This document shows positions 3,667 through 32,186 of a DNA stretch of 64,000 nucleotides, piece by piece. This DNA is from Plantactinospora soyae (GTDB taxonomy: Bacteria; Actinomycetota; Actinomycetes; Mycobacteriales; Micromonosporaceae). The translations under genes were made by a program, and so were the position numbers. The stretch covers positions 9,362,001 to 9,426,000 of the forward strand of contig NZ_JADBEB010000001.1 of assembly GCF_014874095.1 (NCBI RefSeq), read 5' to 3'. The notes under the pieces were generated by a model. The model had not been told where the DNA came from. It saw nothing but the letters and a program-made list of their open reading frames with translations, and ran no database searches. Each line of letters starts with the position of its first letter. The first letter of the stretch is position 1.

Positions 3667-4119
3667 TCAGCGCGGAGTCGTCGTCGACGGCTCGTCTTCA
3701 CGGGCGCTCCACTGACCTGCGAAGACGAACTCCAACAGCACACGGTCGCCCGCGGCCCGCATCACCAGATCCTGAGACTCCTGCAATCGGCAGATGAACT
3801 CGGCGAACAGGACCGGCGGCGCGGCCAGCAACCGCTCTGACCGCTCAAGGATCACGATCCTGCCGCCCTGGCCGACAGCGATGAGGTCCCCCAGGCAGTC
3901 ACTCCAGGCGTCCCAGTTAGCACCGAAGTAGTCCGGGAACTGCAACGCTTCCCCCAGCCGCTTCAGGACGAGTTGCCGGGTGGGATCGGGTGGAACCTCG
4001 ACTCGCAGTGGCTGGGCCTGGATGCCATGAGCGAAGGAGACGACGTAGTCGACGAGTTCGTGGTCGATGACGTACGGCGGCCCCGACAACCGACGGTTCT
4101 GGCTCAACGAGCGAAGCAT
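3667..4119 (-). CDS. Barstar-family protein (ribonuclease-inhibitor fold)
   Basis: A protein of about 150 residues with the barstar signature in the middle: LKRLGEALQFPDYFGANWDA followed by WSDCLGDL, the helix-loop that blocks the barnase active site in the classical inhibitor. The family binds and neutralises secreted or polymorphic-toxin RNases. No barnase-like nuclease gene lies next to it, so it may be an orphan immunity gene or act on a distant partner. The ATG at 4119 is used; a GTG at 4134 in frame is possible. Confidence 0.8.
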   Translation of the reverse strand: MLRSLSQNRRLSGPPYVIDHELVDYVVSFAHGIQAQPLRVEVPPDPTRQLVLKRLGEALQFPDYFGANWDAWSDCLGDLIAVGQGGRIVILERSERLLAAPPVLFAEFICRLQESQDLVMRAAGDRVLLEFVFAGQWSAREDEPSTTTPR

Positions 4120-4358
4120 GGGACATTGTCCCACCGCCGCTCATGCCACCGCTGACCGTGCGGAAGCGCCGGTGCAGCCCGCCATCACAACGGCCGCGCG
4201 TACCGGGCGGCCGCACTTTGGGTCTTGGGGTGCACTTCGGGGGCATGGACTCGTTGTGGAGGCCCTTGATCACAATGGGGAGCGGGTCGTTTGTTGCCAG
4301 TGGCAGAGGGAATACCTCTTCCGGCAGTCTAATGGGGCCACCAGAGGGGGGATTTGAA

Positions 4359-4577
4359 ATGGCTCGACAGGAGAAGAAGCAGGGTCAGCAGAACTCGGCG
4401 GCCAGTCGGAACGAGATGGCAGGAATGGACCTCCACTCAATGCGCGAACGGGCCCACTCGATGGGGATCGATGGAAGCTCGAAGATGAGTGAGGACCAGC
4501 TGCGCAAGGCAATGATGATGATCAACAAGGGGACGGACCCCATGATGGCAAAGCAGGAAGCCAAGGGGAACATGTAG
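4359..4577 (+). CDS. Small hydrophilic protein with a SAP/Rho-N-like segment
   Basis: A 72-residue protein, MARQEKKQGQQNSAASRNEM and onward, with a strong GAGGGGGG ribosome site just upstream. The segment MDLHSMRERAHSMGIDGSSK followed by MSEDQLRKAMMMI resembles the helix-extended-helix of SAP or Rho N-terminal domains, which often bind nucleic acid. It is rich in methionine and lysine and has no membrane segment. It is the last host gene before the mobile element. The role is unknown. Confidence 0.65.
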   Translation: MARQEKKQGQQNSAASRNEMAGMDLHSMRERAHSMGIDGSSKMSEDQLRKAMMMINKGTDPMMAKQEAKGNM

Positions 4578-4841
4578 TACCCACGGGTCCGTCATACCCT
4601 GTCGCTGCCGGCGATACGGCGAGCAGGTCCCGCGACAGCTCGAGGGAGCCACGACCGGAGGGCCGCCCCATCTCATCCGGAGTCGACGCTCACCCCGGCG
4701 AACTGGGCGATGTCCTCGCGCCGCAGTCCGGGTACCGCGCCGACGGGACCTACCGGGAGCAGCCCCACGTCCACGGGCTACAGCCGGGGCGGCGGAACAT
4801 CAGGAAGCCGCTGAGGGAACGCGACCACGGCGGAACATGCG
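4578..4841. other. Non-coding host sequence left of the element
   Basis: I see no supported gene in this stretch. By topology it is the sequence that originally lay downstream of rnpB before the element inserted. Confidence 0.5.
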
Positions 4842-4877
4842 ACCAGGTCAGAGCCATGATCACGGCTCCGACCTGGT
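4842..4877 (-). terminator. Displaced original rnpB terminator hairpin
   Basis: A 14-bp stem with one mismatch (ACCAGGTCAGAGCC at 4842-4855, GGCTCCGACCTGGT at 4864-4877) lies directly beyond the left 33-bp att copy on the rnpB sense strand. By site-specific recombination logic this is the host B' arm, so it should be the terminator that followed rnpB before integration. It resembles the hairpin now following rnpB at 19926-19957. Confidence 0.6.
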
Positions 4878-4880
4878 GAA

Positions 4881-4913
4881 CGACGGACGAGTCGACCTGT
4901 ACGCCGGATTTTG
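4881..4913. repeat. attL core, 33-bp copy of the rnpB 3' end
   Basis: This block, beginning CGACGGACGAGTCGACCTGT, matches 19963-19995 exactly over 33 bp. The right copy is the 3' strand of helix P1 and the adjoining conserved segment of RNase P RNA. Perfect direct repeats at the two ends of a block holding integrase and excisionase genes are the expected result of integration. Confidence 0.88.
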
Positions 4914-4961
4914 GAGCCATCAGCCTCTTGAGCAGTGACTGAGTCCGGCGAAGGCCACTGT

Positions 4962-4980
4962 GGGCCGTCGCCGGGCCGTC
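4962..4980 (+). promoter_or_regulatory. Candidate integrase arm-type sites, left
   Basis: Two direct copies of GGGCCGTC start at 4962 and 4973 (11-bp step), 49 bp inside the left core. The same octamer occurs four times at the other end. Repeats on both arms of the att core are typical of sites bound by tyrosine integrases or Xis. This is inferred from sequence only. Confidence 0.45.
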
Positions 4981-5021
4981 AGTAGCAAGATGCTTAATTA
5001 TCGCCAACGTGATACTACTGA

Positions 5022-6518
5022 CTATGCGAGCACAGCAGCCAGCTCGAAGGCCTGCCTCCGTATATCTTCCTGCTGACACCAAAGCCGAATCAGCACACTT
5101 GTTACGAACCGTAGATCCAGCCCTAGTTGAGTAGCAAGAACATCGGGCCATCGTTGATGTTCGAAGAATTCAAAACCGCCTAGGGCTACCAGTAATGCGG
5201 TTTCACTGCGACCCAAAGCTGCCGCCACTGCTTCAGAATTGCCATAGGCAAAACCGATAAGCTCTTGCTCCGGGTCCGACTTTCCGGGCAGCAAAAAAAG
5301 TCCGTTTGAGCTGTCAGCAAAATCTCGCTGGTCGGCATCAAGGACGCCAATAACCCGTACTCGCGATGCACTAGACAGGCATCTTACGCCCGCTATCACA
5401 TTATCCTTTCCGCCGGCTTGGACAACTTCTATTCCGGCGATGGAAGCATTTAAACAACCAAGGACTCCCACAAGAACCAAAGAAGCGAAGGCGTCTTCGA
5501 CCAGCACGATGACCGCCACGGGAATCTCCAACCCGACGGCACGCTGCACCTGCACAAGCGATTCGGGCTCGACGACTCTGATCTTTCCGCGAGAGCCCCT
5601 CACACACATTCTTACGTTCTTCAAGGGAAACCGGGAGAACACTTGCGGGGAGTGGGTTGCAACGATCAGCTGTAGTTTCCCTTTAAGCGCGCGACGCGCA
5701 ACTTCGTCAATGAAGGCGCGATGGCCACGTAAGGCTAGGAACGACTCAGGCTCATCAAGCATGAACATGGATCCGGCATCCAGTCTTCCTTGCTCCCAAA
5801 GAACCTGATACACCCAAAGCTCACCTAAGCTGAACGACGTATTGTCAGACTCTCGCCCGGCAGTCTTTGAGATCACGTAGGGCCTTTGCTGATACCAGCT
5901 CTCATCGTCGTCGCTCCTGCTATCCAACACGACCGTCCACATAGAGACGGAGTCATATTTTTTACCCAAGATTCCAGCGAGCGCAACAAGCTCACTTGAC
6001 TTAAACCTCTGTTCATTCAAGAGGCGCTTCTTAGAGTGCGGAAGTTCCTGATAATACCAAGTGAAGTCATTAGCCAATTCAGCAGAACTTACGTAGGCCG
6101 GCCAGTTCGTCTGCCACCCGTCAGTTGCCCACGCCTGAAAACGCTCATCGACAGACCCCGCCAGGTCGATGACTTTCTTCTCCTCATTGCCATCCACGGA
6201 TACGGTCAACTCAATCACACCAACAACAGGATTATCGACATTTCCGTACCCTTCGGCGCCCACGAATGGCGGAGTTCCGCCCCCGAATCCGAAGGCTGCC
6301 TGAATGACGCGAAGGAGCAATGTTTTTCCGGCGCCATGCGAGCCAACGATGCAAATCGCCGAGTCGAGTTCGATTACCTGCTCCTCGAATACCTCAGACT
6401 CGATAATTCGTATGGATTTAATCCACTGAGGCGGATTTGTCGCCAAGATGCGGCTCCAGACGCGACTACGCGCATCGTTCTCGCTAGCAACCATGATTAC
6501 ACCATGCCAGCCAGACAT
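5022..6518 (-). CDS. OLD-like ATPase with TOPRIM-like C-terminus (candidate defence gene)
   Basis: A 498-residue protein built like OLD-family nucleases. The N-terminal ABC-type ATPase has Walker A GSHGAGKT (59-66), a SFSLGEL signature (228-234), Walker B MFMLDEPE (251-258) and the H-loop ATHSP (287-291). The C-terminal part shows TOPRIM-like acidic motifs: VLVEDAFAS (338-346) and GVLDADQRD (391-399). OLD, GajA and retron-linked relatives cut DNA in phage defence; a nuclease role here is inference. No UvrD-like partner lies beside it, so it is a stand-alone type. GC content is visibly lower than its neighbours, which suggests recent acquisition. It sits between attL and the integrase, a usual cargo position. 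A start at 6494 is also possible; neither start has a clear ribosome site. Confidence 0.75.
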   Translation of the reverse strand: MSGWHGVIMVASENDARSRVWSRILATNPPQWIKSIRIIESEVFEEQVIELDSAICIVGSHGAGKTLLLRVIQAAFGFGGGTPPFVGAEGYGNVDNPVVGVIELTVSVDGNEEKKVIDLAGSVDERFQAWATDGWQTNWPAYVSSAELANDFTWYYQELPHSKKRLLNEQRFKSSELVALAGILGKKYDSVSMWTVVLDSRSDDDESWYQQRPYVISKTAGRESDNTSFSLGELWVYQVLWEQGRLDAGSMFMLDEPESFLALRGHRAFIDEVARRALKGKLQLIVATHSPQVFSRFPLKNVRMCVRGSRGKIRVVEPESLVQVQRAVGLEIPVAVIVLVEDAFASLVLVGVLGCLNASIAGIEVVQAGGKDNVIAGVRCLSSASRVRVIGVLDADQRDFADSSNGLFLLPGKSDPEQELIGFAYGNSEAVAAALGRSETALLVALGGFEFFEHQRWPDVLATQLGLDLRFVTSVLIRLWCQQEDIRRQAFELAAVLA

Positions 6519-15948: not shown

Positions 15949-16011
15949 GGACGTCTCCGCTACAGGACGTTTCAAGCCCGTCACAGGACGTTTCTTGACG
16001 CCCCCAGACGT
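15949..16011. promoter_or_regulatory. Phased GACGT repeats upstream of the XRE/Nudix operon
   Basis: GGACGTC at 15949, GGACGT at 15965 and 15986, and AGACGT at 16006 are spaced 16, 21 and 20 bp, about two helical turns for the last steps. The 11-mer ACAGGACGTTT is repeated exactly at 15962 and 15983. The cluster begins just upstream of the XRE start, so it is a likely operator array. Confidence 0.5.
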
Positions 16012-16206
16012 CGACCGACAGTCCACCAGGGCGGATGCGCCGTACCCGCCACCAGCCGTTGACTACACACCGTCGTACGGAGTTGTCCGTGTCTTCGTGC
16101 CCGCCGTAACGGCCGCGAGGGCAGGTGAGTACGACACCAACGGTCGGGGTGCGGGCCTTCCCCGTCAGCTCGCGCCCCGACCCTCAGATCCGAAGGAGAA
16201 CGGGAC

Positions 16207-16560
16207 GTGTCCGGACACCGACGCTCCGGGGAGTGGCCGCCCCGAAACTCAATCACCCCAGGGGCAAGCCAACATCCATCGTGGATAGCGGAGCCGACCG
16301 AGCAAGACAATCGATTCGTCCTGCACATACCCTTTTTCGCCTCTGACATCGGCGCCGCCTTCAAGCGAGCGGGGTTAGTCGCCGACGTCTTGATGTTCCT
16401 GCCTCACTTTGAGCAAGGCGAGAGTACCGTCACATACGAGGGCGACCAAGACAATCACTACAGCATAATCTGTGATCGGCCGTTCCCCGACGGAATCCGC
16501 TGCCCCCTCCACCGCTGCCACTCAGGCGAATGCCGCCCCGTTCGAGAAATCGGACGTTGA
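16207..16560 (+). CDS. Hypothetical Cys/His-rich small protein
   Basis: A 117-residue frame starting at GTG 16207, 8 nt after an AAGGAG ribosome site. The first third is low in complexity. The remainder looks coding (RFVLHIPFFASDIGAAFKRA, then FLPHFEQGESTVTYEGDQDN) and ends with several Cys and His residues (CDRPFPDGIRCPLHRCHSGE). The end might bind metal. It is divergent from the XRE/Nudix operon inside the element. No family is recognised. Confidence 0.5.
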   Translation: MSGHRRSGEWPPRNSITPGASQHPSWIAEPTEQDNRFVLHIPFFASDIGAAFKRAGLVADVLMFLPHFEQGESTVTYEGDQDNHYSIICDRPFPDGIRCPLHRCHSGECRPVREIGR

Positions 16561-16936
16561 AGACCCAACCTTCTCGTTAGCGGACCCTCTGTTACGTTTT
16601 CAGGACGACCCTAAACGGGGCCACACGCGCCGCTAGCTGGGCATGCATATGGCCCCGCTGTCCCTCCGTGCCGGCCAGGCAACGTGCCCAGTGGATGGCG
16701 CAAAGGGCGGATGGCCGGTACCGCCACAGACCGATCGGTCTGGGAACGTAGTGACGGTTCATCGCCGGCACCCGGCCGCACGAGCGACACGGCGCGGAGA
16801 AGGGCACACCGGATCCACGCGGCCGGTCACGGCCGTTGGGGGTACACCGTGACGTCAAGGTCTAATTGACGTGGCAGGACGGCCGGCGGTCCGCCCCCGA
16901 GGACGGCTTGACGGCAGACGGGATGACGATGCATCC
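16561..16936. other. Intergenic stretch with a 16-bp palindrome
   Basis: I see no convincing gene. The perfect palindrome CAGACCGATCGGTCTG at 16727-16742 could be an operator for a dimeric repressor or a small hairpin. Short open frames on both strands here lack a ribosome site and coding character. Confidence 0.5.
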
Positions 16937-18115
16937 CTAGGAATACGTTGTGGAAGTTTGTTCGTATGTGGTTGGCGACTCAATTGTATCCAAGACCTCG
17001 GCTGCTGCGTAATAGAGCCGTCCGCCGCGTCCGTGCGGGCCGATGTACTCAAGCCACCCGTAGCTGGCTGCCCTGTCTAGCAGGTTACGGGCTCCCTGAA
17101 GAGTCCCACCAATGTTTCCCTGCACCCTCTTGGCCGTTATGAAGGGGTTTTGGAACATGAGAGGAATAAGGGCGCCTACTCGCGATCGGTCATCCCTGCA
17201 CTGTCGATAGTATTTTTCACGCAAAGCAACTAGCTTCGTCGCCCTTGTTGCTGCATCTGCAGATTGCTCTTTGATGGCTTGGCAGAAAAATTGAATCCAG
17301 CCCTGGATCGAGCCAGACTCCCTTACTGCTTGAAGATGATCATAGTATTCACGACGGTGCGTCTCAAGATATCCCGACAGGTACAGGAGTGGCGCAGCCA
17401 GACGTTGTTCCTGTATCAACTGGAGTACTATTATTAGGCGGCCAATTCTTCCATTACCATCCAAGAATGGGTGAATAGTCTCGAATTGATAATGCATCAA
17501 TGCACTGCGCACAAGCAGGGGAATCCTGCTATCCTCATTGACAAATCGTTCCCAGTCAGTCAGAAGTTCGGGTAGATGCTCCGGCAAAGGGGGGACAAAT
17601 AAGGCATTCGAAGGAGTGGACCCCCCGATCCATACCGGGGAGCGCCTAACTTCTCCCGGCAAACGGTCGTCACCTCGAACGCCTTCCATTAGCGCCTCAT
17701 GCACTTCTTTGATGAGTCGCATAGTGAGGGGAAGCGTGTTAATCAAACGAAGTCCCGCCCGTGTCGCCGAGAGGTACCGCCCCACTTCGGCAATGTCATT
17801 GGTTCTTTCTGACGCGTCCTCTTCTGCCTTCAAGACCTCAGTCAGCGAAGCGTTCGTTCCCTCAATGCGAGAACTCGCTATAGCTTCGCGAGTCAGGAAG
17901 GGACCGACCAATAGTTCTGGCTGAGAAATAAGTCGCCCTAGACCCTGGAGGCGTCCGAGTGCATTATCCGCCTCCGACAGGAGAAGGACCGTATCATTGT
18001 CAAATGAAAGCATGCGAGGTAGTGGCTCAGGCATATAGTAGGTAAAAGCCCACTTGTCACCCGGCCGTTGGGTAGGGTAACCAAAGGGAGTCTTGCCATA
18101 GTTCGCGGCTTCCAT
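16937..18115 (-). CDS. Fic-domain AMP-transferase (AMPylase)
   Basis: A 392-residue Fic protein. The core motif HPFLDGNGRIGR (215-226) is complete, with catalytic His215. An N-terminal inhibitory motif SSRIEG (81-86, pattern S/TxxxE G/N) marks a self-inhibited class II enzyme, preceded by the usual Fic N-terminal region. A C-terminal winged-helix-like part (FITAKRVQGNIGGTLQGARN) may bind DNA. Fic enzymes move AMP from ATP to Tyr, Thr or Ser of target proteins. GC content is lower than in the AICE backbone, so it is probably acquired cargo. The 72-bp tandem repeats begin 34 bp upstream. Confidence 0.88.
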   Translation of the reverse strand: MEAANYGKTPFGYPTQRPGDKWAFTYYMPEPLPRMLSFDNDTVLLLSEADNALGRLQGLGRLISQPELLVGPFLTREAIASSRIEGTNASLTEVLKAEEDASERTNDIAEVGRYLSATRAGLRLINTLPLTMRLIKEVHEALMEGVRGDDRLPGEVRRSPVWIGGSTPSNALFVPPLPEHLPELLTDWERFVNEDSRIPLLVRSALMHYQFETIHPFLDGNGRIGRLIIVLQLIQEQRLAAPLLYLSGYLETHRREYYDHLQAVRESGSIQGWIQFFCQAIKEQSADAATRATKLVALREKYYRQCRDDRSRVGALIPLMFQNPFITAKRVQGNIGGTLQGARNLLDRAASYGWLEYIGPHGRGGRLYYAAAEVLDTIESPTTYEQTSTTYS

Positions 18116-25404: not shown

Positions 25405-26900
25405 TCACCATTCGGTCAAAAAGCTCTCGCCGAACATCTGTCGCCCGGTGTCACGCTCGACCAGTTCCGTCGAGGCGATGGTCCTACCGGCCGTGTCGAG
25501 GGCCCGCACGGTCAACTTGGTGCCGAGCGGGACGGTGAACAGAGCGGCGCCGCGCTGCTGCGGGCTGACGTCGGGCAGCACATTCCCCGCCGCGTCGATC
25601 ACCGAGTACGAGGCGTCGGTCGCCCGCCCCACCACGAGCAGCCGGTCCGACAACACCGCCCGACCACCGGCCCGCTCCGGAATCCGTACCGTGATCAGAT
25701 CGGCGGAGTTGGTGTAGCCGGTGGAGACGAGGGACCAATTCTCCCGGTCGGCGTCGGGTGCCGCCGGATCATCCGGGGCAGGATCATCCTGCCCGGCCAG
25801 TGCCAGCATGCCCTTCACGCCCGGCCCGACCTGCAAGAGCACCGGTCCCGGGGCGCTCGGGCTGACCAGTACGGCCGGCGGAATCTCGACGCCGGTCCGG
25901 ATGTCTTCGTCGAAGATCCAGCCGGACCACCGTACCGCCGGGGCGAGATCCCGGGTCAGGGAGTCGCCGAAGCCGGCTCTGCGGGCCAGTTCCCAGTACG
26001 ACCCGATCGCGGCCGATGCCACGGGCCCGTCGATCGTCGTCGCGCCGACGCTCGGCGTAACAGGTGCGGCCGGCACCGCCGATCCGGTGACCTCGTCGAG
26101 CTGGGCGCCGAGCGGAGCCCGGTGCCGGAGCGTCCCATCACAGGTGGCTCGCCAGTACCCGGTCGCCGGCACCCGCTCGTCGAGCGCGTAGTCACCACCC
26201 GGCGCCGGTCGCCAGTTCCGCCGGATTCCGTCGGCCACCGGGCCGATCGTCGCGGTCTGCGACACCTCGACCGCGCAGCCGGCCGGGGCAAGGCCCAGGG
26301 TGAACCGCACCGACGAGTCGTCGCCCCCCTGGATGGTCTCCGATACGACGAGGAACGGCTCGACCCGCGCGTTCATGATGCCCGCCCCCAGAATCAGCTC
26401 CTGGGCGGACGCCCCCCGCCGAGCCATCCGGGTCACCAGGCTGGCCCTCGAATCGGAGTGGTACGCGACGACGACCGATCGGGCCTTCGGAAAGTCGTGT
26501 ACGAAGAGCACCTTGGCCTCGGGCAGCGCTGCGGCGCCCTGGCCGACCCGGTCCGCCACGAATGCCTGGGTGAGCCCGTCGACCAGTGCCCGGTCGTCGC
26601 CGAGGTTGCCCCGGGCCGGGGACTCGATCAGCCGCCAGCTCAGGTCCGAGGTGACCGGATAACCGTTCTCCGGAAACCGGGGGCTCCCCCGTCCGTCACC
26701 GGGCCCGGCCGGACCCAGCCCCACTACCCCGGATCCGAGCAGCGCGGTGGTCAACAGCGTCGCCAGGCCACCGCCGATCCCGGCGAACCTGACCCGTCGC
26801 CGACGGCGCGTGTGCCGGCGCAACAGCAGCGCGTACGGATCCTCGTCCGGTGCCACCGACTCGGCCAGTCGGGCGAACCCTGCGCGCAGCTCGTCCACAC

Positions 26901-26904
<4 letters not shown>
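25405..26904 (-). CDS. Membrane-anchored partner of the SigE-type sigma factor (putative anti-sigma role)
   Basis: A 499-residue protein. Residues 1-40 are cytosolic (MSVDELRAGFARLAESVAPD), followed by a basic stretch RRHTRRRRRVRF and one membrane helix (about 40-65, GIGGGLATLLTTALLGSGVV). The remaining 430 residues are outside the cell and beta-rich. ATG 26904 overlaps the sigma stop as ATGA. Such membrane partners of SigE-family factors are usual in Micromonosporaceae. An inhibitory role is inferred; no zinc anti-sigma motif is visible. Confidence 0.72.
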
Positions 26905-27479
<575 letters not shown>

Positions 27480-27554: not shown

Positions 27555-28016
27555 TCAGCCTCGACCGGTGATCGATCTCAGCACCACACCCACGACGGCG
27601 TCGACGGGGACGTAGCCGTACTGCCGGGAGTCGCCGCTGCCGTCGGGGTTGTCGCCGAGCAGCACCAGGCTGCCGGGCGGCACCAGCGGCCCCGAACCGT
27701 CGATCGGAAACGGAACCGGGTCACCGGGCACGGCGGCGACCCGCTTGATGACCCGGCTGTTGCGCAGCCGGTCCTCGGGGGTGACCCATCCCGGTAGCGG
27801 CCGGACCGTCTCGGGCAGGTCGACCACGGCCACCTGCCCGCTCCGGACCCGGGCGCCGGGACGGCGGCGTACCAGTAGGCGGTCGCCGTTTCGATAGGTC
27901 GGCGCCATGCTGGGACCGCGCACGGTGACCACCAGGTGCCGGCCCCGCAGCCAGCAGAACCAGCCGGCCAGCGCCGCCACCACCGTCACGGCCACGGCTG
28001 CGGCCGGCCAGGTCAT
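27555..28016 (-). CDS. S26-family signal peptidase
   Basis: A 153-residue type I signal peptidase. An N-terminal membrane helix (about 4-22) precedes box B RGPSMAPTYRNGDRLLV with catalytic Ser36, box D VIKRVAAVPGD with catalytic Lys91, and box E LLGDNPDGSGDSR. It acts on the outer side of the membrane to cut leader peptides. Its ATG overlaps the ABC exporter stop as ATGA, so it is probably dedicated to the peptide exported by that transporter rather than to general secretion. Confidence 0.87.
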   Translation of the reverse strand: MTWPAAAVAVTVVAALAGWFCWLRGRHLVVTVRGPSMAPTYRNGDRLLVRRRPGARVRSGQVAVVDLPETVRPLPGWVTPEDRLRNSRVIKRVAAVPGDPVPFPIDGSGPLVPPGSLVLLGDNPDGSGDSRQYGYVPVDAVVGVVLRSITGRG

Positions 28017-29878
28017 GCCGGGGCCGCCGCGGCGTAGCCACGGGCCTGGAGGTTGAACAGCCGGGCATAGACGCCGTCGACCGCCAGCAACGTGTCGTGG
28101 TCGCCCAGTTCGGCGATCTGGCCGTCGGCGAGTACGGCGATCTGCCCGGCGTCCCGGACCGTGTTGAGCCGATGCGAGATCAGCAGGCTGGTGCCGTTGC
28201 CCCGGTGCCTCCGAAGCTGGCTGTGGATCTCGGCCTCGGCCTCGGCGTCAAGTCCGGAGCTGGGTTCGTCGAGGATCAGCAGGTCCCGGTCCTCCCGCAG
28301 CAGCGCCCGGGCCAGGGCCAGTCGTTGGCCCTGTCCACCGGAGAGCAGTACGCCGGTGTCGGCGTCCTCGGAATCAATGCCCTCCAGGAACATCCGGGTC
28401 AGCATCGTGTCGTAGCCCTTCGGCAGCCGGGTCAGCGCCTCGTGCACCCCGGCCCGTCGCCCCGCCGCCTCGATCCGGTCCCGGTCGCCGAGTAGCGACA
28501 GGTCGCCGACCCCGATGTTCTCGGCCGCCGAGAGTTCGTACTCGACGTAGTCCTGGAACACGGTGCCGATCCGCTGCCGCAGTTCGTCGGGATCGAGGTC
28601 CCGCAGGTCGACCCCGTTCCACCGGATCTCTCCCCGGACGGGGTCGTAGAGCCGGCAGAGCAGTTTGACGACGGTGCTCTTGCCCGAGCCATTGAGGCCG
28701 ACCAGTGCGGTGGCCTGCCCGGCCGGGAGGACGAGGTTGACGCCGCGCAGCACCCAGGGCCGGCTGGGCCCGTACCGGAACCAGACGTCGCGGAACTCGA
28801 TCCCGTCAACCAGCGCCGGCACCGGGGCCGGGGTCGCCGGTACCGGCAGGTCGGGTTCCGTCGTGGTCGCCACGTGGAAATGGTCCATCATCATCAGCGC
28901 GTGGTGCACGGCACCGAACTGTCCCACGATGCCCGACAGCCCACCCTGGACCCCGGCCACGGCGGCGACGAAGACGGTCACGTCCCCGATGGTGAGCTGA
29001 CCGGACCGGGCAGCCAGAACCGCCCAGACCAGGCCGCCGCCGGCCACCGCCGCGCCGAGCAGGGCGAGCATGCTCTGCACCTTCAGGTCCCGACGGTCAA
29101 CGGACCGGCTGTCGGCGTTCGCGGACCGCAGCTCGGCGAGCATCCTGGCCCGAAAGAAGGCGCCCAGCCCGAAGAGCCGGATCTCCTTCGCCTCCCGGGG
29201 CATGCTGAGCAGGTTCGCGTAGAAGTGCTGGCGCCGGTTGGCGTGGCCGATCCGCCACATGGTCGCGGTGCGGAGCCGGCTCAGCAGCAGTTCGGCCCGG
29301 ATCGTCGGCAGTGCCGCGACGGCCACCGCCAACAGCAGCCACGGGTTGACCACCCAGAGGGTGACCATGAACCCGCCGGTGGTCAGCAGGTCCCGGCCGA
29401 TTCCGGTGCCATTGGTCACCAGGTCGCCCGGGCTGCTGCTGCCGAACTGCTGGGCGAGCTGGATCCGGGTGTGGAACGGGGGGTCCTCCAGTTTGGTCAG
29501 ACCCCGCAACCGTTGGTGCAGCGCGCGGTAGAGCCGGTCCACGGCGGCCAGCCGGACCTGCCGGCCCAGTTCCGTCTGGGCGTACCGGGACAGCATGGGC
29601 AGCACGACGGTGGCGATCCCGGCCACCGCCAGCGCGCCGGCGAGCCAGACCAGGGTCCGGTCGGCCATGCCCCCGACCAGACCGTCCAGCACCAGCCGGG
29701 TGAGCCAGGCCGCCCCCACCGGCGCCAGGCCGGCGGCAACGGTCAACGCGAGCAGTCCAGCGAGGCTCTGCGGAGCCGCCCGGACCGCCAGTCCTGCGGC
29801 GGTCCGGGCGTGGCTCCACATCACCCGTGCGGGAAGTGGTTCCGCTCCGGACCCCGCGGCGCCGGGACCTCCGGTCAC
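28013..29878 (-). CDS. ABC transporter with fused membrane and ATPase domains, peptide-exporter type
   Basis: A 621-residue half-transporter that should work as a dimer. About six membrane helices occupy residues 30-330. The ATPase follows, with Walker A VGLNGSGKST (about 395-404), signature LLSGGQGQRLALARAL and Walker B LLILDEPSSGLD. There is no C39 leader-peptidase domain at the N-terminus, which fits the separate S26 peptidase gene that overlaps it. GTG 29878 overlaps the redoxin stop as GTGA. It probably exports the cysteine-rich peptide encoded at 30691. Confidence 0.85.
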   Translation of the reverse strand: MTGGPGAAGSGAEPLPARVMWSHARTAAGLAVRAAPQSLAGLLALTVAAGLAPVGAAWLTRLVLDGLVGGMADRTLVWLAGALAVAGIATVVLPMLSRYAQTELGRQVRLAAVDRLYRALHQRLRGLTKLEDPPFHTRIQLAQQFGSSSPGDLVTNGTGIGRDLLTTGGFMVTLWVVNPWLLLAVAVAALPTIRAELLLSRLRTATMWRIGHANRRQHFYANLLSMPREAKEIRLFGLGAFFRARMLAELRSANADSRSVDRRDLKVQSMLALLGAAVAGGGLVWAVLAARSGQLTIGDVTVFVAAVAGVQGGLSGIVGQFGAVHHALMMMDHFHVATTTEPDLPVPATPAPVPALVDGIEFRDVWFRYGPSRPWVLRGVNLVLPAGQATALVGLNGSGKSTVVKLLCRLYDPVRGEIRWNGVDLRDLDPDELRQRIGTVFQDYVEYELSAAENIGVGDLSLLGDRDRIEAAGRRAGVHEALTRLPKGYDTMLTRMFLEGIDSEDADTGVLLSGGQGQRLALARALLREDRDLLILDEPSSGLDAEAEAEIHSQLRRHRGNGTSLLISHRLNTVRDAGQIAVLADGQIAELGDHDTLLAVDGVYARLFNLQARGYAAAAPA

Positions 29879-30450
29879 GCCCCCACCGGTACGGCCACGA
29901 CGTCCGCGGCGTGGTGGCTGACAACCGTGCCGTTCTCGTCCAGCCGGCCCATCGCGGGGTACCCGGTGATCCTGAAGGCGTCGTGCAGCGGTTCCTTCCG
30001 TCCCCGCTCGATCACCACCAGGGCCACCTCCCGGAGTTGCGCCACCATCTCGGCCCGGTCCGCCTCCGTCTCGCCGGACACGACCGCCAGCGCACCCTGT
30101 CGCCCGGCCGGCAGCGCGCGGGCCGCCTCGACGAACCGGGGCAGCCACTCTCCGCACGCGGAGCAGGTCGTGGAGAAGAAGCCGACCAGCCCGCCCCGGG
30201 CAAGGTCCGCCTCACTGATTCGGTGCCCGTCGATCGTCTCGACGGCGAACGGTGCGGGCCGGCGACCTGGTCCGATCATGAGTTCCGGCTTCGGCGCCGT
30301 CTCGGCGAGGGCGACGAGCCGCTCCGAGTGGTCCCGTAGCCGTCGGATCACACCGAGCATGAGCACCAGGTTGAGGAGCGTGACGGCGACGCACACGATC
30401 ACCACTGCAACGAGGATCATCATCAGTTTTCCTTCGAATTCCTGCTGCAC
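29875..30450 (-). CDS. Membrane-anchored thioredoxin-like (redoxin) protein
   Basis: A 191-residue protein with one N-terminal membrane helix (about 10-33, MMILVAVVIVCVAVTLLNLV) and an extracytoplasmic redoxin domain. The active site is FFSTTCSACGEW with Cys96 and Cys99, as in TlpA/MauD proteins. The cis-Pro region is TGYPAMGRLD. It likely makes or corrects disulfides in the peptide made by the upstream gene, which has eight cysteines. Starts at 30423 or 30420 would also keep the helix. Confidence 0.82.
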   Translation of the reverse strand: MQQEFEGKLMMILVAVVIVCVAVTLLNLVLMLGVIRRLRDHSERLVALAETAPKPELMIGPGRRPAPFAVETIDGHRISEADLARGGLVGFFSTTCSACGEWLPRFVEAARALPAGRQGALAVVSGETEADRAEMVAQLREVALVVIERGRKEPLHDAFRITGYPAMGRLDENGTVVSHHAADVVAVPVGA

Positions 30451-30523
30451 CGATAGGGATTGGAGTCAATGCGGAGACGCCCCGTCGAGCGCGCCCCTGA
30501 TCAGGGCCGGAATACGCCGAACC

Positions 30524-30562
30524 GGCTGCCGCCGACCCACGAGCACGGGTACGGCGGCAGCC
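30524..30562 (-). terminator. Hairpin between the peptide gene and its processing genes
   Basis: An 11-bp perfect stem (GGCTGCCGCCG at 30524-30534, complement at 30552-30562) with a further CCC/GGG pairing inside lies in the 240-bp gap downstream of the precursor gene. No U-tract follows. It may stop most transcripts, so precursor is made in excess, with some read-through to the redoxin, ABC and peptidase genes. Confidence 0.5.
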
Positions 30563-30690
30563 AGTCAAACGGGACGGTGAACTCCTGGCGAACGCCTTCG
30601 GTTATTTGCGACCCACCGCTGCCGCAAGAACCCCTGTCCGGAACGGCTCAACAGCCTGAACAGCGACGCTCACCACCGATTGTGCGCCGT

Positions 30691-30897
30691 CTAGTCGACG
30701 TGGCAGGGGCCGCAGGAGACGTCTCGACCGCTGTTCGCGCAGTAGCACTGCTTGTGCTGGCCACCGCTGCACGGCAGGGTGTAGTAGCACGGACCAGTGT
30801 ACGGATAGGCCCCACACGGACAGCTCGCTGCCGCGCTGGTGGCGGGCACGAACTTGCTCAGCATCCGATCGCTGAGCTCTTCCAGTTTCCTGAACAT
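30691..30897 (-). CDS. Cysteine-rich secreted peptide precursor (bacteriocin-like candidate)
   Basis: A 68-residue precursor. Residues 1-24 (MFRKLEELSDRMLSKFVPAT plus SAAA) look like an amphipathic leader ending in small residues. Residues 25-68 hold eight cysteines: CPC, GPC, LPC, CYC and CGPC. ATG 30897 has an AAGGGGAG ribosome site. The following same-strand genes encode a disulfide-handling redoxin, an ABC exporter and an S26 peptidase, which fits a leader-cleaved, disulfide-rich peptide. From memory, myxobacterial fulvocin C is a 45-residue bacteriocin with eight cysteines, so the mature size and Cys count are alike; I have not aligned them. Other options are a signalling peptide or a metal-binding peptide. 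Confidence 0.7.
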   Translation of the reverse strand: MFRKLEELSDRMLSKFVPATSAAASCPCGAYPYTGPCYYTLPCSGGQHKQCYCANSGRDVSCGPCHVD

Positions 30898-32186
30898 CTG
30901 CTCCCCTTCCGGTGAACGGGTCGCCGAATCCATACAGGATAGCAATGCGCTGGGTTCCGCGCTCGGCGACGGTTCCGCAACGCTATCAGGATCACTTCCA
31001 GACAAGCAACGCTCGTGAATGGATAGATCCCGATCCGCTCGTCGGCGGAATAAGCGTGACGACCGGCCAACGCCGCCGTACGGTGGCGCACGGGCCCATG
31101 TGCGCGAGGATGCCAGTGCGCTGGCCAGCACGTCAACCCCTGCGCCACCGTTCCACACCGCCGGACCCGGCTCGACTTCACGGACTGTCACTCGGCCGAA
31201 CCGTCCACCCTCGGAGTCAATGGCACGGTAATGCGCATGCATTTCTGCGCGCATATCCGCGAGACGGCTCCACTGTGGCACGCCGAGCACGCCGCACCGG
31301 CAACGACACCACATTTTCTCAATTCAACACATCGCCACGTCGACCAGAACTGCTGCTTCCGGAACTTCGACGGAATCGTCCAGAGCAGATCCGCGATCGC
31401 AACCGGAACCACGTCGAACTTTCTGGGCGAGGAACTGCTTTCGATACTTATCGGTAACCGCCGGGAAGTTCCGCTCTGCTCGACAATGCGCACACCCGGA
31501 CAGGGCGATGGGAATCGGCCGTACGCGCGATGCTGCCGGGTCACCAATTCCGAGATTCCGGTCCGGACAGCCGGAAGTGCACAACGTCCACCCCGACCAA
31601 TGGTGGGCTCGCTCCCATCGACGACCTCCGCAGTTCAGCCACCCGGCGCTCGGACCGGACCGGACCGGCGTCAGTTGCGGGCAGTCGACGACTCCGGTCG
31701 ACAAAGAACGCTTGATCGTCGCCGTAGCCCGGGCCGGGGAAGGACGTACCGGGAAAGCTGGATCATCGTTGCCAGCGGCTCCGCCCCGTTTCCCGATACC
31801 GTCGCGGGATTCCGGTGGGCACCGACGCCAGCCGGCCGTGCCTACGAAGCCGAATCCGCGGGGCGGGCCGCGCCGAAGCGGGAGCGTCACGGATCTTCTC
31901 GGGCCACTCGGTTCCGCCGCCGGGAAGTCGGAGGAACCGGATCCGATCCCTTGAAAGCGCGCCAACATCCCCGTGCCGGGACAACTGCCGCGATGCGCGC
32001 CGTCGAGGAGATCATCGAACGCCAACGGCGACCCGAGATCCTGGCGCGGATACGCACCGGGCGAGATCAATTCGGCCGGCTACCCACCGTAAACATGATC
32101 GGCTTTTCTCCGGTGCGCGACGGCAGCCGTCGACCGGCGAGCCGGAGGGCAGCCGCCGACCGACGAGCCGTTAGCCTCGACGATCT
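30898..32186. other. Long region without a supported gene upstream of the peptide operon
   Basis: About 1.3 kb with lower GC and several open frames on both strands, none with a ribosome site, domain or steady codon bias. Near the peptide gene the minus strand carries TATCCT about 50 nt before the ATG, a possible -10 box. The stretch could hold a decayed gene or regulatory DNA. Confidence 0.45.

Follow-up and report, generated by a model that had tools for sequence, protein, structure and literature searches.

A predicted operon for a disulfide-rich exported peptide in Plantactinospora soyae and its family of precursors with a conserved leader and variable cores

Several described systems resemble parts of the locus considered here. 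Prochlorosins have a conserved leader and hypervariable cores, and one machine serves many unlinked precursors; their lanthionines are formed by ProcM. In the systems of sublancin, with BdbB, and pediocin, with a CxxC accessory protein, export by an ATP-binding cassette (ABC) protein is combined with a dedicated thiol-disulfide protein encoded in the operon, and the double-glycine leader is cleaved by the C39 domain of the exporter. Fulvocin C is a peptide of approximately 45 residues with eight cysteines. The locus in question is a four-gene operon on the minus strand of the GC-rich 9.7-Mb genome of Plantactinospora soyae, within a stretch of 64,000 nucleotides analysed as a whole (the window; G000:C1:9362001-9426000). 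It encodes a cysteine-rich precursor, a membrane-anchored redoxin, an ABC exporter and an S26 protease. All parts were found where the initial annotation had placed them, on the minus strand, which it did not give; the operon as an observation is confirmed.

Compared with sublancin and pediocin, no C39 domain is present here, the leader ends in A-x-A, and the protease is a separate S26 protein. The predicted mature part of the window precursor is like fulvocin C, as that peptide is described, in size and cysteine number, but the link to fulvocin C proposed in the initial annotation is not supported: the precursor gave no match to profiles of Pfam or NCBIfam, and none to PHROGs, up to an E-value of 1. 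In the maturation of methylamine dehydrogenase, as far as it is outlined in PMC7794033, MauE and a MauD/TlpA-like redoxin act on a cysteine-rich substrate, as seems to be the case here, whereas the presumed substrate of the present operon is a short peptide that has an ABC exporter and an S26 protease of its own. According to the excerpts used of PMC6989792, actifensins are disulfide-rich bacteriocins of actinobacteria with a propeptide of 69 residues, a leader of 32 residues and six cysteines; genes for a transporter and a protease lie nearby, and some strains have several copies. The actifensin leader ends in a GA-type motif, in contrast to the A-x-A found here, and the word "thioredoxin" is absent from that text.

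Among prior descriptions in open-access text (subscription papers and preprints were outside the scope), decRiPPter (2020) was the sole overlapping work. In the excerpts of that paper (PMC7794033), three candidate families with mauE, one of them also with mauD, are reported from three Streptomyces strains. Each has a predicted precursor with at least eight cysteines, the filter requires a transporter, a peptidase and a regulator, and a role of mauE in precursor modification was already suggested by the authors. MauE, a Cys-rich precursor, a transporter and a peptidase are common to these families and to loci of the window type: the combination was found in 54 of the 67 loci described below, and not in the window, which has no MauE. 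Matched by description and not by precursor sequences, the decRiPPter mauE families are likely to be the precursor family studied here. They are computed Streptomyces candidates, and the A-x-A leader, the parity of cysteines, the hypervariability of the core and multi-copy genomes are unmentioned in those excerpts, in which no later work on the candidates is reported either. There is a fair chance that the precursor family deserves a class of its own.

The operon very probably makes a ribosomal, disulfide-rich exported peptide. In the proposed maturation, the conserved leader of approximately 24 residues, ending in A-x-A, would direct the precursor to the dedicated ABC exporter. Outside the membrane, the anchored TlpA/MauD-like redoxin would oxidise or isomerise the cysteines until all of them are paired, and in most relatives this redoxin might be re-oxidised by a MauE-type membrane protein. 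The S26 protease would cut after A-x-A, leaving a 44-residue peptide with four predicted disulfides and a calculated monoisotopic mass of 4638.78 Da. The mature part of 44 residues expected in the initial annotation coincides with a cut after the A22-x-A24 motif. With a constant leader and an almost unconstrained core, the same machine would handle very different cores, encoded adjacent to it or at a distance. We infer the order of the steps, the topology, the redox direction and the cleavage; what is read in the sequences is which genes are present and linked, the leader with its A-x-A motif, the even cysteine counts and the hypervariability of the core. That the linked genes supply disulfide formation, export and leader cleavage, as first proposed, is supported by the comparative evidence.

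With the window precursor as the sole query, 12 of 101 related genomes gave matches, the source genome among them. A profile from a 25-row alignment matched 112 of 300 genomes of the Micromonosporaceae, in 26 of 44 genera, and 21 of 345 genomes across the class, whereas a 54-row profile at an E-value of 1e-4 matched two of 296 genomes phylum-wide, one of which was its own genome. The precursor family is common in the family of the source organism and patchy elsewhere. The leader of approximately 24 residues reads roughly L-[AG]-D-R-x-L-x-x-x-V-P-x-x-x-A-x-A, and its A-x-A end has the form of a signal peptidase site. Both A22 and A24 are invariant in the 25-row alignment; in the 54 rows, A24 is invariant and A22 is conserved in at least 90%. 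A pattern of [AVGST]-x-A fits 166 of 167 precursors, but it is permissive and its last alanine is fixed by construction, so that the two alignments are better evidence. Cysteine is absent from 166 leaders. The cores, in contrast, showed 130 different Cys spacings among the 167 precursors. In a group of 16 members, the ratio of nonsynonymous to synonymous substitution rates (dN/dS) was 0.11 for the leader and 0.51 for the core, with ten cysteines invariant. When the 25 members of the first alignment were compared with Pfam and NCBIfam up to 0.1, only one marginal hit to a domain of unknown function (0.096) was found, and the precursor profile had no significant match in the PDB. With a conserved leader, a variable core and dedicated linked maturation and export genes, the precursors appear to be RiPP-like, that is, similar to ribosomally synthesised and post-translationally modified peptides.

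Linkage was examined using profiles of the redoxin, ABC and S26 proteins, built from the first loci, the window among them, and run over neighbourhoods of mostly 16 kb; a fourth profile, from a recurring protein, was run over the same neighbourhoods. In the first set (the window and the 22 neighbourhoods around the matches of the window-precursor query), redoxin, ABC and S26 were all present in 12 of the 23. Of the other 11, two were without S26 and nine had the precursor only; these nine belong to G010, G013 and G032. Sixty further neighbourhoods, six of them from G010, were picked from stronger or better-assembled matches of the family-wide and class-wide searches and not at random. Among all 83 loci, 16 in the four multi-copy genomes G010, G013, G032 and G126 contain the precursor alone. 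Outside these four genomes, 62 of 67 loci have redoxin, ABC and S26 on one stretch of approximately 16 kb together with a precursor, and so do 57 of 60 sampled genomes, the exceptions being G354, G465 and G636. If extra copies and the presence of MauE are taken into account, 28 arrangements can be distinguished among the 62 complete loci, and ABC relatives from precursor loci are 48-78% identical to the window ABC. The initial annotation had proposed genome mining and had stated that a precursor not kept beside these genes in relatives would speak against it; this neighbourhood is conserved in relatives. The fourth recurring protein was identified as MauE, since all of the 12 copies scanned (12 of 12) matched PF07291. 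It is present in 56 of the 67 loci, in 54 of them together with the other three. In its complete form, the machine usually includes MauE, a member that is absent from the window operon.

Precursors and machine are not always adjacent. The whole-family searches scored approximately 20 candidates per genome, and the copy numbers from them are lower bounds. When more candidates were scored in nine chosen genomes (E-value 0.001), 61 precursor matches were counted in G013, 37 in G126, 36 in G032, 24 in G119, 20 in G010, 14 in G110, nine each in G045 and G465, and two in the window genome. The approximately 61 profile matches of G013 are scattered over a genome of 7.2 Mb. Forty-seven precursors were read in G013 (46 with even Cys numbers) and 14 in G126 (all even). 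For the ABC protein at an E-value of 1e-60, G013 gave one match, G010, G126 and G110 one close and one weaker match each, and G032 two close matches and one weaker. The central loci of G010, G126 and G110 comprise MauE-redoxin-ABC-S26, whereas those of G013 and one locus of G032 have just the ABC-S26 pair; the MauE and the redoxin of G013 (one strong and one weaker match each) lie apart from this pair. The machine of the multi-copy genomes is away from the precursors, and therefore the two can be unlinked. By analogy, this layout of many precursors and one machine may be said to resemble the prochlorosins in organisation. Leader, core and single machine are alike; the difference is that redox, export and S26 proteins make up the set here and that disulfides are predicted.

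The number of cysteines was even in 164 of 167 distinct precursors (four in 5, six in 57, seven in 3, eight in 70, ten in 30 and twelve in 2; none had nine), and in 123 of 126 clusters of similar cores. A weak hit, L096 (G636; five Cys and no operon), had been dropped before this count, which becomes 164 of 168 if it is kept. One of the odd precursors, L302, has six core cysteines and owes its odd number to an extra one in its leader. The remaining two are encoded by adjacent genes (L040:7868-8263, the same as L011; G064:C2), have seven cysteines each, and are the only odd-Cys cores of the 167; this pair may form a heterodimer via an intermolecular disulfide. The even counts appear to fit complete disulfide pairing. 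Evenness would be imposed by complete pairwise bonding, and not by thioethers, free thiols or metal sites alone, which argues for disulfides.

The features of the operon are collected in Table 1. The GTGA overlap at 29875-29878 (redoxin/ABC) and the ATGA overlap at 28013-28016 (ABC/S26) link the three genes, in agreement with the overlapping stop and start codons first described from the redoxin onward. The gap between the precursor and redoxin genes is 267 nt, and a scan of it gave neither a promoter-like nor a terminator-like site. The redoxin start is likely to be the ATG at 30423, which is preceded by GAAGGAAA. An AlphaFold2 model of the precursor with four orthologues was unusable, with a predicted local distance difference test (pLDDT) value of 49; a leader helix was predicted in this low-confidence model alone.

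Table 1. Positions of the operon features in the window
Feature	Position	Strand	Remarks
Precursor gene	30691-30897	minus	ATG at 30897, stop at 30691; 68 residues, 8 Cys
Precursor ribosome-binding site GGAAGGGGAG, purine-rich	30901-30910	minus	Directly 5' of the start codon (30897)
Precursor leader, residues 1-24 (MFRKLEELSDRMLSKFVPATSAAA), no Cys	30826-30897	minus	Conserved in 25 family members
A22-x-A24 motif, predicted S26 cut after residue 24	30826-30834	minus	Family alignments
Precursor core, residues 25-68 and stop; 44 residues, 8 Cys	30691-30825	minus	8 Cys invariant in four orthologues
Membrane-anchored TlpA/ResA/MauD-like thiol-disulfide redoxin	29875-30423	minus	CSAC at 30154-30165, conserved Pro157
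ABC exporter, MsbA-like permease-ATPase	28013-29878	minus	ABC_membrane PF00664 and ABC_tran PF00005
S26 signal-peptidase-type protease, one N-terminal hydrophobic stretch	27555-28016	minus	Ser36 (27909-27911), Lys91 (27744-27746)

In an alignment of 18 redoxin sequences, Cys88 and Pro157 are invariant and Cys91 is conserved in at least 90%. The AlphaFold2 model, made with 17 relatives, has a pLDDT of 93 and one long N-terminal helix, and its top PDB matches are the ResA/TlpA-type thiol-disulfide proteins ResA, TlpA, StoA and CcmG. The modelled thioredoxin fold, together with the CxxC motif and the conserved proline, places it among proteins of the TlpA/ResA type. For the S26 protein, the matches are PF10502 (E-value 9.3e-19) and sigpep_I_bact (69.8 bits; cutoff 47). 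Its Ser36 and Lys91 are invariant in 16 sequences, and this Ser-Lys dyad within a conserved S26 domain places it among the S26 signal peptidases. The exporter had been described as lacking a peptidase of its own; accordingly, a Pfam scan gave zero C39 matches in the ABC protein. In PADLOC, the ABC protein matches defence models, which is judged to reflect generic ATPase matches, and zero matches were found for the precursor, the redoxin or S26.

Other known types of secreted peptide were also compared with the precursor. A double-glycine (C39) bacteriocin was rejected from the missing C39 domain and the A-x-A end of the leader; a loose pattern, in which the first Cys is immediately preceded by G and then G, A or S, is found in nine of the 167 precursors. 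The defensin pattern CX(2,18)CX(3)CX(2,12)CX(4,17)CXC, as it stands in the excerpt of PMC11561630, is not matched by the window core, and seven of the 167 members fit it, compared with 9.35 for shuffled cores; an actifensin or CS-alpha-beta defensin was rejected on this ground. A Sec or Tat secreted protein was likewise rejected. By hydropathy, the leader has no strongly hydrophobic stretch, that is, no h-region (the median of the 10-residue maximum is 0.98 in 166 family leaders), and by pattern a twin-arginine-like motif occurs in one of the 167.

A number of observations weigh against the proposed maturation. The parity control is imperfect: 67% of 392 unrelated small open reading frames (ORFs) with at least four Cys are also even, a value raised because the Cys counts of such frames decay from four upward. 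Five of the 67 loci are incomplete, namely L031 and L044 without S26, L132 without ABC, L136 without ABC and S26, and L145 without all three. Conversely, a precursor was not recognised at the machine loci L177, L178, L179, L181 and L182 (of nine), nor at L186. MauE is missing from the window operon itself, and the genome carries its best copy at another site, with one strong and three weaker matches in all. The match of the redoxin to the ResA profile of NCBIfam is weak (E-value 2.3e-5, 24.4 bits; the model cutoff of 170 is not reached), and its Pfam thioredoxin score is 14.6 against a curated cutoff of 23.5. In L139, the CxxC motif of the redoxin is without its second Cys, but another redoxin is encoded nearby. 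Proteins of the TlpA/ResA type are often reductants, and the redoxin here could function in reduction or isomerisation. Among the four orthologues of the window's group, the rates of leader and core are equal (pooled dN/dS 0.33 and 0.34). Finally, no immunity-type gene was prominent among the neighbours examined, for which the gene calls were crude and several clusters, recurring mainly in L112-L126, had no identification.

The role of the peptide is less certain than its maturation. An extracellular antagonistic role, bacteriocin- or toxin-like, is slightly favoured: the variability of the core points to antagonism or defence, and one leader with hypervariable cores in dozens of copies would be the usual mark of an arms race or of recognition. 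The lack of a prominent immunity-type gene points away from a classical bacteriocin. It also agrees with a quite different role, in which the peptides would regulate from outside the cell, bind metals, inhibit enzymes or form part of the envelope. Such a role, which seems possible at a lower level of probability, would be compatible with the BTAD-domain regulators of the SARP/AfsR kind that recur near many loci (the cluster is found in 44 loci, with the domain in five of five scanned), since these allow a developmental or signalling function. For metal binding in particular, the frequent Cys numbers 6 and 10, which are not multiples of four, argue against four-Cys metal clusters.

The redox direction might differ from that proposed. 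The redoxin, with MauE, could act as a reductase or isomerase during export, preserving or rearranging the thiols, while the disulfides come from general extracytoplasmic oxidation; this is considered rather unlikely. Its best profile and fold matches (ResA, TlpA, StoA and CcmG) are known mainly as reductants, and the absence of MauE from the window operon points in the same direction. On the other hand, MauE accompanies the precursor in most loci, and a fully paired end product is suggested by the even parity in both cases. The excerpts of PMC7794033 mention speculation that the disulfides of methylamine dehydrogenase are formed by MauE.

It is very improbable that an enzyme encoded at another site converts the cysteines to lanthionine or other thioethers. 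The unlinked maturation genes of some genomes and the Ser and Thr contents of the cores (7.9% and 7.7%) would permit it. However, thioethers require no even Cys number, and the counts above favour disulfides, as the initial annotation had expected. Its statement that no lanthipeptide enzyme is present holds for the four operon proteins and seven window neighbours scanned: neither these nor the two recurrent clusters scanned in relatives (MauE and SARP) contain a lanthipeptide, YcaO or radical SAM family, and a lanthipeptide was rejected for want of a lanthionine synthetase in the same proteins.

The idea that the precursor frame is spurious and merely adjoins a housekeeping export operon, as its position within a longer open frame of 207 residues in GC-rich DNA might suggest, can practically be dismissed, because the leader is conserved, the family occurs in 112 of the 300 genomes mentioned, the same neighbour genes are found in many genomes, and the precursor is, by its sequence, under purifying selection (dN/dS of approximately 0.33 with all 8 Cys kept in the four orthologues), in addition to which it has a ribosome-binding site, a GC content at third codon positions of 0.82 and relatives in S. 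clavuligerus annotated as hypothetical proteins.

The window genome contains two further loci of related composition. A second precursor system (L147:2762-9195; G000:C1:7981400-7997400) lies 1.4 Mb away in the order precursor-redoxin-S26-ABC, with a weaker S26 match. Its core is different, has 8 Cys (VCQPTC...CRFTNTRFK...) and shows close likeness to sequences in two other genomes. At L320:6363-10018 (G000:C1:7560000-7574000) is a MauE-redoxin-ABC group in which no precursor was recognised. In the window, an ECF sigma factor gene (26901-27479, minus strand) is located 75 nt downstream of the S26 gene, and beyond it is a large open frame without Pfam match (25405-26700, minus strand). The GC content of positions 4001-6000 and 16001-18000 is approximately 59%, compared with roughly 70%; these stretches are possibly acquired DNA.

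In named records, ten loci with precursor, MauE, redoxin, ABC and S26 were found in Streptomyces, Nonomuraea, Micromonospora and Embleya. All 11 distinct precursors from named records have even Cys numbers (4, 6 or 8), counted from the start. An ABC-based scan at more than 50% identity (five of 80 loci listed) gave Nonomuraea sp. SYSU D8015, Streptomyces echinatus, S. atratus, Micromonospora sp. CB01531 and Actinomadura barringtoniae; in the stretch of the last, MauE, redoxin and ABC are present, and neither precursor nor S26 was recognised. A plasmid search gave 29 records (26 Streptomyces, 2 Embleya and 1 Nonomuraea), six of which were examined: S. clavuligerus, S. atratus, Streptomyces sp. 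NBC_00376 and NBC_00053, Nonomuraea gerenzanensis and Embleya sp. The precursors are labelled hypothetical proteins in the annotated plasmid records examined. Plasmid pF1D18A of S. clavuligerus (L266:4946-9171) carries a compact operon in the order two precursors, MauE, redoxin, ABC and S26, in which the precursors (WP_003953191.1 and WP_009999284.1) are "hypothetical proteins" and the redoxin is "hypothetical". This operon is a practical test system.

Taken as a whole, the precursors seem, by a small balance of probability, to form a class of ribosomal peptides in its own right, which would be to disulfides what the prochlorosins are to lanthionines. One A-x-A leader and a single MauE/redoxin/ABC/S26 machine would serve an open-ended library of well over one hundred Cys frameworks, up to approximately sixty per genome and acting in trans when scattered, and the 7-Cys pair of L040 would be a covalent heterodimer. 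If so, some actinobacteria would possess a large set of miniproteins that are folded naturally by disulfides and are as yet barely annotated, and one natural machine that folds unrelated Cys frameworks behind a removable leader would be a general bacterial tool for disulfide peptides. The conserved leader and the even Cys counts make the family directly minable and testable.

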